A stretch of 64,000 bases of DNA, from the NCBI RefSeq assembly GCF_003003265.1, contig NZ_PVTL01000009.1:62001-126000 (forward strand), written 5' to 3'. The translations under genes and the position numbers were made by a program. This document shows positions 12,324 to 20,845 of the stretch, piece by piece; position 1 is the first letter of the stretch; each line of letters opens with the position of its first letter. The stretch comes from Glaciihabitans tibetensis. Lineage in GTDB: Bacteria > Actinomycetota > Actinomycetes > Actinomycetales > Microbacteriaceae. Under the pieces are notes generated by a model. The model saw only the letters and a list, made by a program, of their open reading frames with translations. It was not told the DNA's origin and did no database searches.

Positions 12324-13220
<897 letters not shown>

Positions 13221-13228
13221 CTACTCTA

Positions 13229-13244
13229 GAGAACGAACGTTCTC
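13229..13244. promoter_or_regulatory. Palindromic operator 2, probable TetR site
   Basis: GAGAACGAACGTTCTC is a perfect inverted repeat with 7-bp arms and a 2-base centre. It shares the GAGAACG half-site with operator 1; the two centres are 35 bases apart. Confidence 0.75.
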
Positions 13245-13306
13245 AGCGCAAGTCGGCAGCGTTAGATTCGACACCTTTGCCGCAAGATTGTCAGGAAGAG
13301 ACGACC

Positions 13307-13876
13307 ATGGACGCCACCACCGAGCTCCGCGAGCGCGCAGTATCCGCCGCCGACCGGCTCTACTACGCGCGTGGGGTGCAGTCCGTCGGAATGGACGAGC
13401 TGCGCTCCGAGGTCGGAGTATCGCTGAAGAAGCTGTACTCGCTGTTCCCCTCCAAGGAGGCGATCGTGCTCGCTGTGCTCGACCGCCGTCACCAGGTGTG
13501 GACAGACGGCATCGAAGACACAGCCGCCGCGGTGTCGACACCGCGCGAAAAACTGCTTGCGATCTATGACTTCCTGTTCGCCTGGTTCAGCACCGACGAC
13601 TTCAACGGCTGCGGCTTCATCAACGCGTTCGGCGAACTCGGTGCCACCGTGCCGTCGGTCGCGGAGGCGGCCCGCGAACAGAAGTTGTCCTTCCAGGCCT
13701 ATGTCGCGGAACTGTCCCGCCAGGCTGGCGCCCCCGACTTCCTCGCGCCGCAGCTGGCGCTCCTCGCGGAGGGCGCCCAAACCACCGCAGCGATCTCCGG
13801 CAGCCCGGAGTCCGCCCATCACGCCCGTGCCGCGGCGGTTACCCTCATCGACGCCGCCCTCGCGCCCCAGCACTGA
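13307..13876 (+). CDS. TetR/AcrR family transcriptional regulator
   Basis: A 189-residue repressor. The N-terminal TetR DNA-binding domain is at about residues 8-55 (ADRLYYARGVQSVGMDELR, EVGVSLKKLYSLFPSKEAIV). The remaining helices form the ligand-binding and dimer domain. I chose the ATG at 13307, which has AGGAAGAG just upstream; the frame is open further upstream but that part crosses the palindromic operators. It is expected to bind those two operators and repress both itself and the divergent hydrolase. The ligand is unknown. Confidence 0.93.
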   Translation: MDATTELRERAVSAADRLYYARGVQSVGMDELRSEVGVSLKKLYSLFPSKEAIVLAVLDRRHQVWTDGIEDTAAAVSTPREKLLAIYDFLFAWFSTDDFNGCGFINAFGELGATVPSVAEAAREQKLSFQAYVAELSRQAGAPDFLAPQLALLAEGAQTTAAISGSPESAHHARAAAVTLIDAALAPQH

Positions 13877-13912
13877 GGCGTCACGAGCGAGGCGCCAAGG
13901 TCGCGGCGCCGA

Positions 13913-13954
13913 GAGCCCGGCGCCCTGAGCCCGGCGACCTGAGCCCGGCGCGGT
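13913..13954. repeat. Tandem repeat, three copies of a 14-bp unit
   Basis: Units of about GAGCCCGGCGACCT lie at 13913-13926, 13927-13940 and 13941-13954, with changes in the last four positions. The array ends on the stop codon of the phosphatase gene. Confidence 0.85.
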
Positions 13955-15162
13955 CAGGCCGTTCGCGTGACGGCGACCACGGTCAGGTCGTCGCGCGCTT
14001 TGGAGCGGCGGTTCATCGCGCTCACCCGATTAATCAGGGCTTGGGGACCGGATGTCTCGCGCACGAGTTCCGCGATCTGCGTAAGCGACGCGAGCGTACC
14101 GTCAAACAGGTTGAGCAACCCATCGGTGAACGACACGAGGGTGTCGCCCGGCTCAAGCATCGAGGAGCGTACGTCCCACGCGCCGGCGGCCAGCAGCCCG
14201 AGCGGAAACCCGGTCGATTCCAGCCGCTCGATGCCGCGGTCTGCCCGCACGATGATGGTGAGGCCGTGGCCGGCATCCGCATAATCCACGATCCCCGTCT
14301 TGGAGTCAACACGCGCCAACACCAGGGTCGCGAACGTTCCCACCGAGCGCAGGTCCTGGGAGAGCGTGCCGTTCGCATCCTGCATGGCCGCCGCAATGTC
14401 GGAGCCGTCGTACTGTTCGAACCTGCTGCGGATGGTGGAGGCGATGGCCTCGGCGGCAGCACCCTGACCCATCACGTCAGCGACAAGCAGTTCAACGCCA
14501 CCGTCGAGCTCGCGGACGGCAAAGAAGTCGCCGCCCACTTTGCGCATCGGCAGGCTGGTTCCCGAGATGGCGTAGGCGGGCACCGGTTCTCCCGGCGGAA
14601 GCGCGGGTTCGGCCAGGGCGGTGCCGGCTCCGGCGGGTTCCTCCTGGGCATCGAGACGACCGGGGCTGTCCCGCAACTCGCGCTCGACCCACATCCCGAT
14701 GTCATCAAGAAGGCGCAATTGCACGTCATCCAGGTCTCTCGGCTGGGTGTCGACGAGGCACAGCGTTCCCACCCGCGACTCGCCATCGATGCTCAGGGGG
14801 CGTCCGGCATAGAAGCGGATGTTTCGTGGACCGGTCACACCGCCCTTGGCAGCAAAACGCTCGTCCTGGGTCGCGTCGGAGACAACCAGGATTTCGTCGC
14901 TCTCGATGGCAACGTGGCAGAACGAGTCAAACCGGTCGCTGGCGGCACTCTCTCCCGGAACCTGCGGCGAGTGCGTGTACTGGCGGAACTCGTCGAGCAG
15001 GTTGATCTCAGCCACGGGAACGTTGAAAATCTGCCGCGCAATACGCGTGATGCGGTCGAACCTCTCCTCGGGAGAGGTATCCAGGAGCTTCAGCGCGTCA
15101 ACCGCCTCCAGGCGCGCCTTCTCGGCGGCGGCTCGGTCAGCTTTCTTCAACATTCTCGGCAC
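13954..15162 (-). CDS. GAF-domain PP2C-type (SpoIIE) serine phosphatase
   Basis: A 402-residue cytoplasmic signalling protein. Residues about 20-170 form a GAF sensor (DRITRIARQIFNVPVAEINL, SFCHVAIESDEILVVSDA, FYAGRPLSIDGESRVGTLCL). Residues about 200-400 are a SpoIIE-like PP2C phosphatase with GGDFFAVRELDGGVELLVADVMGQG and LVSFTDGLLN, including the expected metal-binding aspartates. Such proteins usually dephosphorylate anti-anti-sigma factors in response to a signal bound by GAF. No anti-sigma or STAS partner lies nearby. The GTG at 15162 has AAGGGG upstream at good spacing; the ATG nine bases further in is an alternative. Confidence 0.9.
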   Translation of the reverse strand: MPRMLKKADRAAAEKARLEAVDALKLLDTSPEERFDRITRIARQIFNVPVAEINLLDEFRQYTHSPQVPGESAASDRFDSFCHVAIESDEILVVSDATQDERFAAKGGVTGPRNIRFYAGRPLSIDGESRVGTLCLVDTQPRDLDDVQLRLLDDIGMWVERELRDSPGRLDAQEEPAGAGTALAEPALPPGEPVPAYAISGTSLPMRKVGGDFFAVRELDGGVELLVADVMGQGAAAEAIASTIRSRFEQYDGSDIAAAMQDANGTLSQDLRSVGTFATLVLARVDSKTGIVDYADAGHGLTIIVRADRGIERLESTGFPLGLLAAGAWDVRSSMLEPGDTLVSFTDGLLNLFDGTLASLTQIAELVRETSGPQALINRVSAMNRRSKARDDLTVVAVTRTA

Positions 15163-15466
15163 AGTTGCCCCTTCTCGACGCCAGCGGTCGGGTACACCGC
15201 CGGATTGCGTTTATGCTTCCACACCTTGCGCAGCCCTCGATCGTTGCGCACGCGATGTTTCCCTGCTCGTTGCGCACCCGATGTTTACTCAGTCGTCGTG
15301 CGCGATGGGCAGGGGGTGTTTATTTGTGGCACAACGGATGTCTCGACCGGCTACGAATCGTATTCGGAGCAGCGCGCGCTGCGGATTGGCCAGGGCGAAT
15401 GCCGGCTCGATCTCGGACACCCTGGCGCCGCCGGAGAAAGTCGCTGCCGGACATGACACATCCCGG
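15163..15466. other. Intergenic region carrying the phosphatase promoter and a direct repeat
   Basis: This 304-base gap lies between the GH81 stop and the phosphatase start. I see no gene and no clear terminator. Near the middle it holds a pair of 20-bp direct repeats, listed separately. Confidence 0.55.
15241..15286. repeat. Pair of 20-bp direct repeats, 26-bp period
   Basis: TCGTTGCGCACGCGATGTTT at 15241-15260 recurs at 15267-15286 with one change. A weaker partial match follows near 15296. The pair lies about 80-125 bases upstream of the phosphatase start. Confidence 0.8.
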
Positions 15467-18400
15467 TCAGCGAATGTCGATCTCGAAAATCGAGTAGCCG
15501 TACGGCGTCGCGCGACGCAGCCCCTGCACACGAATGTACTGGTACTCCCCGGTTACCTCGAACGACTCACGTCCGCCGTCCCCGGCGCTTTCGGTAGCGA
15601 GGGTCGTGAACGGACCGCTTGCGCTGGTTGCACCCTGAACGAGGTATTCCGAGGCGTAGGCGTCCTCCCACTGCACCGCGACCGTAGAAACAAGTACGCG
15701 CTCTCCGAGATCAACCGTGATCGACTGGTCGTCTCTCGCCTCGCTCGACCAACGCGACGACGCATTGCCGTCGACCGCGTTGTTGGCTCGGGTTCCCGAG
15801 GCCTCTTCGCTCGTGGCAATCGCCGTCGCTCCGGCGGCGAGGTTCTTCGCCACGACAGTTCCGTCGGTCGACCAAACTGACAGGTCGAAGAGCGAGTAGC
15901 CATACTGGGTGGCCCGCTCGACGCCCTGCATGCGCAAGTAACGGCCGTGGGCGTCAACGACGTGGCTGTCGGTGGCACCGTCTCCGTCGTTCTCGGTGAC
16001 CACCGTTGTCCAGTCGTCTGTCGCCTTGTCACGAGTTTGCACCAGGTACTTGGCACCGTAGGCGCCCTCCCAAGTCAGGTCGACGCGCTCGATCGAGGTA
16101 ACCGTGTCGAGGTCGACCTCGATCCACGCACCATCGCTGGCACCGCTCGACCAGCGCGAAGCAGCAGAAGCGTCAACGGCAAACTCGGCCGGGGTGTCCG
16201 AGTTCTCGCGCGACGATGCGGTGACGGACTTGCCGAACGCCACGTTTGCGAGTAAGTCGGGCGCCGGGTCGTCCGGCCCTCCGCCAGGCTCGTCGGTCGG
16301 AGTGTTCGCGCTCACGGTGGCCGTCGCCGATCCCTCGACGCCGTCGAACTCCACGGCGACGGGGTAGATCCCTGCGGTCTTGCCAGCTGTGTAGGTGCCA
16401 TCTGTGTCGATGTCACCACCGTCGGCCGTCCACGGACGGGTGGTGACGCGCCCGCCATTGCCCGACTCGTCGAAAGCGTAGGCGGTGAACTGCACCTCCC
16501 GGCCACTGACAACCGCCGCGTTGCGCGGCGTGACCAGCAATGTGCTCGTGTCGATCGAGGCGGTGGACAGTGTCCCTGTGATCTCCAGATCCCAAATGGA
16601 GTAACCGTAGTTGGTGAGGCGCTCGAGCCCAAGGATCCGTACGAACCGGCCTGTCGCCTCAACCGCGACGTCATCGGGTGCCGCGTTCTCCTTCGTCACG
16701 GTCCTGACGGTCTGCCACGGGCCTTCCGCCCGATCCGAAACCTGAATCTCGAATTTCGCTGCGGCCGCGCTCTCCCAATTGATGCGCACCGACGAAATGT
16801 CGAAAGACTTTTCTAGATCGATGCGGACCCACTGTTCGCCCGCGCCGTGCGCGCTCTCCCAGCGAGTGTTCGACGAACCGTCCACGGCCGAACCGGCGGT
16901 GTTTGAACCGTCCGAGCTCGAGGCGGTCGCCGGCTTGCCCAACGCGATGTCCGCTGCTTCAGCGACCACTGCGACAACCGCGGTTCCAGTTACGGCCCCC
17001 GCAGAGGCAGTGACATATCCGGCGCCGGCTGAGTCGGTCACCATCACACCAGATTCATCGATGGAGCCCTGTGCAGTGGTAGCCCACGTGACCGTGCCCG
17101 ACTCGATCGGGTCTGCGTACTGGTCAAGGCCGGACGCCGTGAACGTCGTCGTGCCAGCCTCGGTCACGCGAACGAACTCGGGCGATACCGCAAGGCTCGA
17201 CAGCACGGGTCGAGGTGCGACGCGAACCTGATAGGTCGCCTCTGTCGTGCCGGAGGTAGCCGTGACCGTCACCGGATCGGCGTTCTTCGTTGCCGAGAAC
17301 GTGCCCAGCCCGGTGATGGTTCCGCCAGCATCCACCGACCACTGAAGGTCGTCGACGGGGATGACGGCGCCGTACTGGTCGTAGCCTACGGCCGTGAATT
17401 CGAGCGAGTCGCCGCGTTGCACCGTCTTCGCACTTCCGGGAGCGGTGATCACGATGTGATCCAGCTTCGCGTCGAGATGGTGCTGCACGAGCGTATGGGC
17501 CGGCACCTGGATGGTGCCAATCACGGCGTCGCCGTCGTAGACCGTGTACCCAGCTTGCGCGTCGGTCGGGTTGAAGACCGCGTAGCTGTAGGCGTTCGTC
17601 TTGGCGTTGTAGTGCACCTGGCTCGTCGGGTTAGCGACGTGGCGGGTGAGTACCTCGCTGCCGAGAGATCGGTTCGACATGGCGTTGTAGTACACCGCGC
17701 CGGCCATCGAGTCATTCGTGACCACAGGGTCGCCGGTCTTGATCAGCTCACCGTACATGTCGGCGTAGAAATCAGGGTCGGACTGCGCGGTGAGACCGAG
17801 CACCACGTTGCCGAGGGCATCACCCATGCGGCTGTAAACGCTGGCCGCCTGTGCGGTGTCGGGTCCGGCGTCGTAGCCGGACACGTCGTAATTGTGCAAC
17901 TTCTGTTGCACGGCGGGGTCGACGTCGTAGTTTGTGGAGAGGTAGGAGAACAGCGTCCAATTCTGCGCCCACAGCTTAGGATCGCTATCCGGTTTGTCTG
18001 CGGGCGGGGTGGCCGGCACGAGCACCGTCGGCAGGGTATCCGGCGTCCAGTGCGCTTCGGGGAACACCAGCTGGCCCGTGCCGTCGACGCTGAAGTACAA
18101 CTCACCGGCGGAGGCGTTGAACAGCGGGTTCGCTGCTACCTTGGCGCTCGTGTAAGTCGGGTTGTTGAGGTACGCCGTTCGGACGGCGTCCTTCAGCGTG
18201 TTGACGGAATCGACTGGGTTTTTTGTTACTTTTCCGCCGTAGGAGGTGCCGAGACCGACCATTTGCTTGGCCGCCAGGCCAAGAATCCCGCCGACGTCCC
18301 CCTTCACGTAGGCACCAAGCGAAGCCGGGCGCTCGTCGAACATATCGTTCAGCAGGCTCTTGGAGAATTGGCGGTCCCAACCGAGGTAGTTCAGCCACGG

Positions 18401-20845
18401 ACCCGTTGGCATCCACTGGATTCCGAAGATCCAGGCGGGGTCGCCGCTGAAGTAGGTACCGAATGCCTGTCCCGAGTCGCCGAGGATACCCACGGTGCTG
18501 TGCGCGTAGGCCGCCGGAAATACCCCCGTGCCGGTGCCGTTGGAGGCATTCGGATTCCCGTTGTAGTTGAGGTAGTAGTCCATCACTGCGGCGCGCTCGG
18601 TGACATAACCCATGGCGCCGGTGGCCTGCATCTCGGCGTTACCTAAAGCGGAGCCGAGCATAAAGATGCCGGCCCATGACTGGATGGCTTCTGAGCTGGA
18701 CTCCTGGTTGTTCCCGCCGCCGGAGCTGTAGCCGCCGGCATAAGAATGCCCCTCGAACACATCGAAGGTGCGCAGGTATGGGAAGTTCTTGTCGTTACGG
18801 TCCCAGTTGGCGTACTGCTTCGCCACGAGAGTCGCCATCGGACCGTAGTGAGCAGCCCACTCTGGGTCTTCGAACGCAAGCAAGCCGGCCGCGAGGGTGA
18901 AGTAGCCGTAGTGAAAGTGGTTGTCTGTGAACTCGTACGACCCGTAGGAGTCATTGAACCCGACGAGGGCTTTCCACGTGTCGTAGCGAGCGAAAAACTT
19001 CTCGCTCTCACCCGGGGTGTAGGTAAACCAGTCGGAGAGTGCGGTCTTCAGTGAAGACTTCAGCGTCTCGTACGACTCGAGGTCACCGATTTGCTTGGCC
19101 ATGGTCATGTATTGCGCGAATTGCAGGACGTCCTTGCCACCCCAGTAGGTGTCTCCACCGTATTCGGTGCGTTTGGCGTAGCTGCTGACGAACTCTTTCA
19201 TCGTGGCGACGCTGTATTCATTACTTCCCCCGGTTTCTTGTGGAGCGGGGGCGACCGGTGTGAGGCCGGTGAATGGGTAGGTGACCGTCCAGCCGCCATG
19301 TCCGATTGCGGTCTTCATCAGGCCTCGGGGGGTGGAGTAGGTGGGCTTTGCGAAGTCAATGTTGGTGGCCGTGCTGTTGTAAGTGTGCGGTAACCAGCCC
19401 TGGATGGTGTCGAGGTTAGTACCCTGCAGTGCCTCGGTCTTGAGTGCGTACGTCTCGACGACTTCGGCGTTCTCGACGCTGTAGTCGTATTCCATGGTGG
19501 TATCGCGCGGGATCGCGAACGCGTGCTGCGACATAGCATCGAGGTCAGCGCCCTCGGCTGGCAGGGCGCTCACCACAAGGTGTCCAGCGGCGAGTTTGGC
19601 CTCGATGGTGTTGCCGACGAGCTCGAACGAGCTGCCCGCCGGGGCATGGATACCGAAGCTGCGATTGTCCTGGGTGATCGTGAACGCATCGACGGTTGCC
19701 GGGAACTCAAGCGGAGATCCGCTCGCGGTAGCAAAGGTCGCGTTGGGACTAACGCTGATCTTGGGAATCACGTTGTCGAACTCGAACCAGGTGTACGGCG
19801 TACCGCGAGCGATGGTGACGTCCATAAACTGATCTGCTGACTGGCGCATACGCCAGCTGACATTCCAGTCGCCCCATCGCAACGCGTCGGCCTGGGCCGC
19901 GCGAAATGAGGTGCCGAACCGCTCGGCGATGCCTTCGGGCACGTCGGTGCGCACAATCTGGTCGACGAGCACGTGGGCCCAGCCTGCCGGTATGTCGTCG
20001 ACAATTTGGATGGTTGCGGTTTGTCCGGCAAACGCGGTGACGTCCCAGGTGACCCAGCGCAGTATCTCGGACTGCTCGCCGGTGGCGGACGCGACGGTCG
20101 CGCCGTCAACTACGAGACGGACTTCTGTGCGTCCGGGGTTGTTTCCGCCGCCGACCATCAGGGCGATGAAGTCGCGGTCGACGGTGAATTCGGGCGAGGA
20201 GAGCGTCCCCATGGCTTCATCCCCCTTCTCCGAGGTGAACGAGTTGACGAGTCCCTTGCCGAGGTATTTCTCCACAGTTGTCTGTCCAGTGGCGGTTCCC
20301 TTCGACGGACTCTGGAATGCATCGCCCGTCGACGTCCATCCGACGCCGAATGCCGCATCTTCGAATCTAGCCATCTCGATGTCGGAAGCGTCGGGCTGGG
20401 GCGGCACGCTTCCCTGCACCTGGATCGCGGAGTTGTCGAGCATGGTGTTGCCCTCTTTGCTCCACTCGGTCGGGTAGGCGATGCGGGTACCCAACTCGGT
20501 GTTCGACACCACCAAGGGATCGGCCCACAGGTTGCCGGAGTACTTGTTGACGATCAGATCAGACCACCACTTGTTGGTCGGTATCGGTTCGCCGCTCAGC
20601 GAGGCGTCGATGTACAGCTTCTTGTTCACAACGCCGGACACGTCGTGGCCTTCGCGGTCAAGCGACGTCGGTGGCGCTGCCGCGTAGGACCCGCCCCCGA
20701 TCGCGATGGGCGTGGACGCACCGGGCTCGGCAGCCGCGTCCGAGCGGGCTGCGGGAGCTGTCGCCGTGAGCGTCAGCGCGGTCAAGGCCGAAGCCACGAC
20801 GAGCGCGGTAAAGCGCACGCCCGGCCGCGAGGAAGGTCGGGTCAT
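15467..20845 (-). CDS. Secreted multidomain GH81 endo-1,3-beta-glucanase
   Basis: A 1792-residue exported enzyme expected to cut beta-1,3-glucans such as laminarin or fungal wall glucan. A signal peptide covers about residues 1-34 (RFTALVVASALTALTLTATA). GH81 begins near PTNKWWSDLIVNKYSG (90-105) and carries catalytic candidates Asp641 in TDNHFHYGYF and Glu715/Glu719 in NNQESSSEAIQSW. Residues about 158-301 are an inserted module resembling the extra sandwich domain of GH32 levanases (GLVNSF, LMVGGGNNPGRTEVRLVVDG, GWAHVLVDQI). After GH81 come two Ig-like domains (about 1128-1215 and 1212-1298), F5/8C (1298-1427), Ig-like (1428-1520) and two more F5/8C domains (about 1533-1660 and 1665-1792), probably glycan-binding. 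There is no sortase or other anchor motif. The ribosome-binding site is weak. Confidence 0.95.
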   Translation of the reverse strand: MTRPSSRPGVRFTALVVASALTALTLTATAPAARSDAAAEPGASTPIAIGGGSYAAAPPTSLDREGHDVSGVVNKKLYIDASLSGEPIPTNKWWSDLIVNKYSGNLWADPLVVSNTELGTRIAYPTEWSKEGNTMLDNSAIQVQGSVPPQPDASDIEMARFEDAAFGVGWTSTGDAFQSPSKGTATGQTTVEKYLGKGLVNSFTSEKGDEAMGTLSSPEFTVDRDFIALMVGGGNNPGRTEVRLVVDGATVASATGEQSEILRWVTWDVTAFAGQTATIQIVDDIPAGWAHVLVDQIVRTDVPEGIAERFGTSFRAAQADALRWGDWNVSWRMRQSADQFMDVTIARGTPYTWFEFDNVIPKISVSPNATFATASGSPLEFPATVDAFTITQDNRSFGIHAPAGSSFELVGNTIEAKLAAGHLVVSALPAEGADLDAMSQHAFAIPRDTTMEYDYSVENAEVVETYALKTEALQGTNLDTIQGWLPHTYNSTATNIDFAKPTYSTPRGLMKTAIGHGGWTVTYPFTGLTPVAPAPQETGGSNEYSVATMKEFVSSYAKRTEYGGDTYWGGKDVLQFAQYMTMAKQIGDLESYETLKSSLKTALSDWFTYTPGESEKFFARYDTWKALVGFNDSYGSYEFTDNHFHYGYFTLAAGLLAFEDPEWAAHYGPMATLVAKQYANWDRNDKNFPYLRTFDVFEGHSYAGGYSSGGGNNQESSSEAIQSWAGIFMLGSALGNAEMQATGAMGYVTERAAVMDYYLNYNGNPNASNGTGTGVFPAAYAHSTVGILGDSGQAFGTYFSGDPAWIFGIQWMPTGPWLNYLGWDRQFSKSLLNDMFDERPASLGAYVKGDVGGILGLAAKQMVGLGTSYGGKVTKNPVDSVNTLKDAVRTAYLNNPTYTSAKVAANPLFNASAGELYFSVDGTGQLVFPEAHWTPDTLPTVLVPATPPADKPDSDPKLWAQNWTLFSYLSTNYDVDPAVQQKLHNYDVSGYDAGPDTAQAASVYSRMGDALGNVVLGLTAQSDPDFYADMYGELIKTGDPVVTNDSMAGAVYYNAMSNRSLGSEVLTRHVANPTSQVHYNAKTNAYSYAVFNPTDAQAGYTVYDGDAVIGTIQVPAHTLVQHHLDAKLDHIVITAPGSAKTVQRGDSLEFTAVGYDQYGAVIPVDDLQWSVDAGGTITGLGTFSATKNADPVTVTATSGTTEATYQVRVAPRPVLSSLAVSPEFVRVTEAGTTTFTASGLDQYADPIESGTVTWATTAQGSIDESGVMVTDSAGAGYVTASAGAVTGTAVVAVVAEAADIALGKPATASSSDGSNTAGSAVDGSSNTRWESAHGAGEQWVRIDLEKSFDISSVRINWESAAAAKFEIQVSDRAEGPWQTVRTVTKENAAPDDVAVEATGRFVRILGLERLTNYGYSIWDLEITGTLSTASIDTSTLLVTPRNAAVVSGREVQFTAYAFDESGNGGRVTTRPWTADGGDIDTDGTYTAGKTAGIYPVAVEFDGVEGSATATVSANTPTDEPGGGPDDPAPDLLANVAFGKSVTASSRENSDTPAEFAVDASAASRWSSGASDGAWIEVDLDTVTSIERVDLTWEGAYGAKYLVQTRDKATDDWTTVVTENDGDGATDSHVVDAHGRYLRMQGVERATQYGYSLFDLSVWSTDGTVVAKNLAAGATAIATSEEASGTRANNAVDGNASSRWSSEARDDQSITVDLGERVLVSTVAVQWEDAYASEYLVQGATSASGPFTTLATESAGDGGRESFEVTGEYQYIRVQGLRRATPYGYSIFEIDIR

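Follow-up and report, generated by a model that had tools for sequence, protein, structure and literature searches.

A CBM-like module inserted in the N-terminal domain of a predicted secreted GH81 glucanase is shared by one clade of GH81 proteins

The window analysed here, a stretch of 64,000 nucleotides from Glaciihabitans tibetensis (Microbacteriaceae; contig NZ_PVTL01000009.1), contains on its minus strand an ORF (15467..20845) encoding a protein of 1792 aa that is predicted to be secreted. According to the original prediction, residues 158–301 or thereabouts interrupt the N-terminal sandwich of a GH81 glucanase and carry the pattern of the extra domain of GH32 levanases and fructanases. 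The locus raises the questions of whether an extra domain is indeed inserted into the GH81 fold, where else such a domain occurs, and what it may do in a glucanase.

Organization of the GH81 protein

From its sequence, the protein was assigned to GH81 with certainty. Pfam recognized the catalytic domain (Glyco_hydro81C, PF17652; E 5.5e-39, 134.8 bits compared to a cut-off of 25.6) and gave a weak match to the GH81 N-terminal domain at residues 84–124, while no GH32 catalytic domain was found by Pfam in this protein. In an alignment of 29 GH81 proteins with and without the insert, the columns of the motifs TDNHFHYGY and NNQESSSEA were invariant or nearly so, and the counterpart of E715 in CtLam81A was E515, which is mutated (E515A) in 6fop. 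Since these motifs are kept across insert-bearing and insert-less enzymes, activity on beta-1,3-glucan would be expected from knowledge of the family. Beta-1,3-glucan occurs in fungal cell walls. The N-terminal beta domain, catalytic domain, catalytic motifs and fold resemble those of CtLam81A (6fop) and BhGH81 (BH0236; 5t49), both of which, unlike the window protein, do not contain the inserted module. Characterized GH81 enzymes have been described with an appended CBM56, CBM6 or CBM52, or with no CBM (PMC9609564).

Besides the GH81 domains, the three expected F5/8C stretches were found by Pfam (Table 1). The first showed its best PDB matches to domains of a glucanase/chitosanase (2rv9, 4zxe; E 4.8e-25), which suggests a chitosan- or glucan-directed anchor and may point to fungal wall material. 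The three Ig-like domains that had also been proposed were weakly supported: pieces of the protein gave sub-threshold matches to Big_1, Invasin_D3 and PKD, and two of the putative Ig-like pieces showed weak mutual similarity, but no Pfam Ig model matched on the whole protein. The ten neighbouring genes surveyed did not form a glycan-use locus and were of housekeeping, regulatory and metabolic types (DNA polymerase III subunit, Na/H exchanger, SpoIIE-type phosphatase, dehydrogenases).

Table 1. Features of the GH81 protein, with residue numbers and positions in the window
Feature	Residues	Positions	Strand	Basis
Signal-peptide-like N-terminus	1-36	20738..20845	-	Sequence reading
GH81 N-terminal domain, first part	65-147	20405..20653	-	Alignment with PDB and ordinary GH81 proteins; model
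Inserted module with linkers	148-313	19907..20404	-	Not in ordinary GH81; homologue of GH32/GH116 module; own beta-sandwich (model)
Sandwich core of inserted module	155-301	19943..20383	-	
GH81 N-terminal domain, second part	314-488	19382..19906	-	PDB match from 314-318; superposition on 6fop
GH81 catalytic domain	561-838	18332..19165	-	Pfam PF17652; 6fop alignment; TDNHFHYGY and NNQESSSEA
F5/8C domain 1	1306-1418	16592..16930	-	Pfam; closest PDB sequences are glucanase/chitosanase domains
F5/8C domain 2	~1534-1658	15872..16246	-	Pfam; bounds estimated from BLAST self-similarity
F5/8C domain 3	~1668-1791	15473..15844	-	Pfam; bounds estimated from BLAST

An extra domain within the GH81 N-terminal domain

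The presence of an extra domain within the GH81 N-terminal domain, absent from ordinary GH81 proteins, was confirmed, and its bounds could be refined compared to those first proposed (Table 1). The solved GH81 proteins 6fop and 5t49 gave strong matches to residues 314–838 and weak ones to the part ending at residue ~125, with no match to either in between. GH81 sequence is thus present on both sides of the insert, as had been claimed, and ordinary GH81 proteins join directly across it, skipping residues 158–301 instead of aligning with them end to end. The net excess of ~160 residues is located at a turn joining two strands: ordinary GH81 proteins have a short turn at this point (DLTLGLAGL followed directly by NSPDAKADGWGDWTV), where the window protein reads SAIQVQGSV, then the whole insert, and then FRAAQADALRWGDWNV. 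Ordinary GH81 proteins from the same class, which show ~29–37% identity to the window protein over the catalytic region, had no trace of the module, and it was also missing from 30 further GH81 proteins of the family. A literature search for GH81 proteins with an insertion gave nothing on topic.

In an AlphaFold2 model of residues 65–500 (mean pLDDT 82.9; ~90–98 through the module), the module was predicted to form a beta-sandwich of its own, inserted between strands 141–146 and 318–324 of the GH81 N-terminal domain. VIA-align superposed model residues 26–425 on residues 61–290 of 6fop (225 residues, 3.8 Å, Z 22.3); the superposed stretch is 400 residues long in the model and 230 in the template, so that the GH81 fold closes up with the insert left out. 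A model of residues 45–1100 had solved GH81 structures as its best matches. Its alignment was shallow over the first half of the module, which was poorly modelled there, and the module was read from the 65–500 model. Alignments mixing insert-less GH81 proteins with the insert misalign across the gap and were left out of the structure work.

Relatives of the module

In a domain search, residues 150–310 alone matched nothing in NCBIfam or the PDB, and nothing over cut-off in Pfam. The CBM_35 profile (PF16990) reached 12.6 bits, below its cut-off of 28, and the segment was not assigned to CBM35. A PDB profile search with the module gave short marginal matches only, the best (E 0.0022 over 27 residues) to bean lectin-like inhibitors, and these were judged to be due to chance. 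On the level of the predicted fold, a porphyran-binding CBM ranked first among solved structures (8xmz; Z 12.5, 2.7 Å, 128 residues). Modules of the CBM16 and CBM29 types came next, and MAM and reelin domains ranked just below these. A related fold (Foldseek), besides the weak profile likeness, was also seen in CBM35-type modules, among them the sandwich of cycloisomaltooligosaccharide glucanotransferase (3wnk, 3wnl), which we take to lie within the catalytic domain of that enzyme; they differ in host family.

The likeness to the GH32 extra domain was well founded, as the module showed clear end-to-end homology to GH32-associated modules of actinobacteria, planctomycetes and verrucomicrobia (E down to 1e-41, identity up to 53%). 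The three motifs from which it had been recognized were located at residues 198–203 (GLVNSF), 229–248 and 288–297 (GWAHVLVDQI). It is not specific to GH32, however, since it was also found in GH116 proteins and inside copies of itself. Among 299 genomes of the family, the top matches to the module were GH81 proteins and the next-best proteins tested were GH32 (Pfam). A scan of genomes from 84,980 species gave at least 541 confirmed relatives; the best 80 of these loci comprised 17 GH81 proteins, with most of the rest being GH32, from Streptomyces, Pseudonocardiaceae, Planctomycetota, Verrucomicrobiota and others.

The GH81 form is a single copy and belongs to a clade of its own, whereas the GH32 form often consists of two nested copies or a single N- or C-terminal copy. 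Most GH32 proteins tested contained a first half (module positions 9–88), a complete inner copy (9–154) and a second half (91–154). Such module-in-module nesting was observed in actinobacterial GH32 proteins at L112:3005-5653 and at loci L113-L118, L061-L063, L065, L066, L068-L070 and L072-L076. As in GH81, the Actinomycetota copy is itself inserted in the catalytic fold: the GH32 propeller was interrupted by the nested pair in many of the proteins, e.g., in L061 with positions 1–248 of the GH32N profile before the pair and 239–307 after it. Planctomycete and verrucomicrobial GH32 proteins had a single module N-terminal to the catalytic domain. GH116 proteins with the module were found in Planctomycetota and Hydrogenedentota (L146:272-3391, L110:2978-6085, L169:2759-5491), and in L146 the GH116 N-terminal domain is interrupted by it (profile positions 1–154 before, 229–312 after). 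In a protein from Phycisphaerales (L140:74-3004), the module was joined to a hydrazine-synthase-alpha-like domain together with weak cytochrome c matches. Plasmid records contained the module at <60% identity only, in GH32 genes where annotated; a plasmid of the marine Catenovulum adriaticum (NZ_CP109966.1) had 11 module-matching places, the best of them in a gene annotated as GH32. With related modules inside two other enzyme families, the module looks like a portable plug-in part.

CBM38 has been described as residues 32–389 of a GH32 fructanotransferase, predicted to comprise two beta-sandwich domains and binding levan and inulin (PMC10076258). Compared by description only, this GH32-associated beta-sandwich region of the Paenibacillus macerans enzyme (AAG47946.1) fits the nested pair of ~320 residues in size and is possibly the same thing, differing from the single module in GH81 by its two domains. 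By that description, the module may correspond to the inulin-binding CAZy family CBM38.

Distribution and history of the insertion

GH81 proteins with the insert at the same place were found in at least 22 actinobacterial genomes, including Clavibacter, Cellulomonas, Modestobacter, Herbiconiux, Curtobacterium, Mycetocola and the window genome, which rules out an oddity of the window or an assembly artefact. The genome collections are samples; in that of the family, GH81 was present in 47 of 299 genomes and the insert in 9 of these 47, in a total of eleven genes. The window genome contained a single copy of the module, and the two other genomes of its genus in the family sample had neither GH81 nor the insert.

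In a tree of the catalytic region, which lies behind the insert, a branch with support 100 separated all 20 rows with the insert from the 62 without it. A tree of the modules, in which the GH116 labels of L151, L160 and L161 were assumed from length, likewise placed 18 GH81 modules in one clade on a long stem (support 100/99). This agreement between the two trees points to one old, retained acquisition, and the simplest history is a single gain that was then inherited, with some transfer. The insert clade has a stem of ~2 changes per site. Insert-less intermediates were absent from the phylum-wide sample, and given the long stem they may exist outside it. Two Mycetocola genomes each contained two insert-bearing GH81 genes side by side (L080:7413-12503 and 12673-17292, with the same pair in L081), which are probably the result of duplication.

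Possible function of the module

We consider it probable that the protein is a secreted GH81 endo-beta-1,3-glucanase of a divergent subfamily with an inserted CBM-like, putatively glycan-binding module. A CBM-like beta-sandwich of ~150 residues would have entered a GH81 ancestor, most simply once, where the N-terminal domain makes a beta-hairpin turn. There it would bind polysaccharide and, tethered at both ends, could fix the orientation of a glycan strand with respect to the GH81 core. The C-terminal F5/8C (CBM32-like) domains would provide a looser attachment of the enzyme to insoluble wall material, perhaps that of fungi.

Glycan binding is in our opinion the likeliest role of the module, ahead of a structural one, and is held with reasonable confidence; binding of a second glycan, as originally suggested, is plausible. 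The modelled fold is CBM-like, which by itself is no proof of binding, and the sharing of this fold by MAM and reelin domains, which do not bind glycans, counts against it. The widely differing substrates of the hosts (fructan, GH116 substrates, beta-1,3-glucan) also speak against a single ligand set by the substrate of the enzyme. The MAM and reelin domains likewise favour a less likely reading, to which we give some weight, that the module is a structural or stabilizing insert (packing, protease resistance, subunit contact) binding no glycan. Such a role would agree with its retention at one site across the whole GH81 clade, its occurrence in host enzymes with unrelated substrates, once in a hydrazine-synthase-alpha-like protein, and the predominance of Gly, Asp and core residues among the conserved positions; nearly all hosts found are glycosidases, however, and among solved structures a CBM is closest in fold.

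It is improbable that the module is a CBM38-like fructan binder, unchanged from GH32, that would direct the glucanase to levan- or inulin-containing matrices. GH32 proteins do house the closest relatives outside GH81, and the two-sandwich description of CBM38 (PMC10076258) agrees in size with the nested pair, but the GH81 modules form a separate clade on a long stem with some changes of their own, e.g., GW(A)H for GWGH, and a search of the window genome, which is 93% complete, detected no GH32 gene, so that the genomic context gives a fructan role no support. That the segment is an ordinary, merely diverged part of the GH81 N-terminal domain has next to no probability, since ordinary GH81 proteins of the family and class have no counterpart, the GH81 domain closes without the segment, and the segment is homologous to modules of other enzymes.

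Beyond glycan binding as the preferred role, a tentative and rather doubtful extension is that the module represents a CBM family not yet described, which would have spread mainly by insertion instead of tandem linkage and would serve as a plug-in site for binding, clamped at its two ends.

Most binding modules are attached at the ends of enzymes. The module described here is instead located inside the fold, at a hairpin, and has been kept by a whole GH81 lineage; judged from the sequences compared, the insertion is fixed in one GH81 clade and is not an oddity of the window genome. As Pfam lacks a model for the module and no solved structure matches it in sequence, annotation pipelines that depend on these would overlook it in these glucanases and in hundreds of fructanases. 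The presence of one module in three unrelated host enzymes, and within itself, offers a clean comparison between internally clamped and appended modules.
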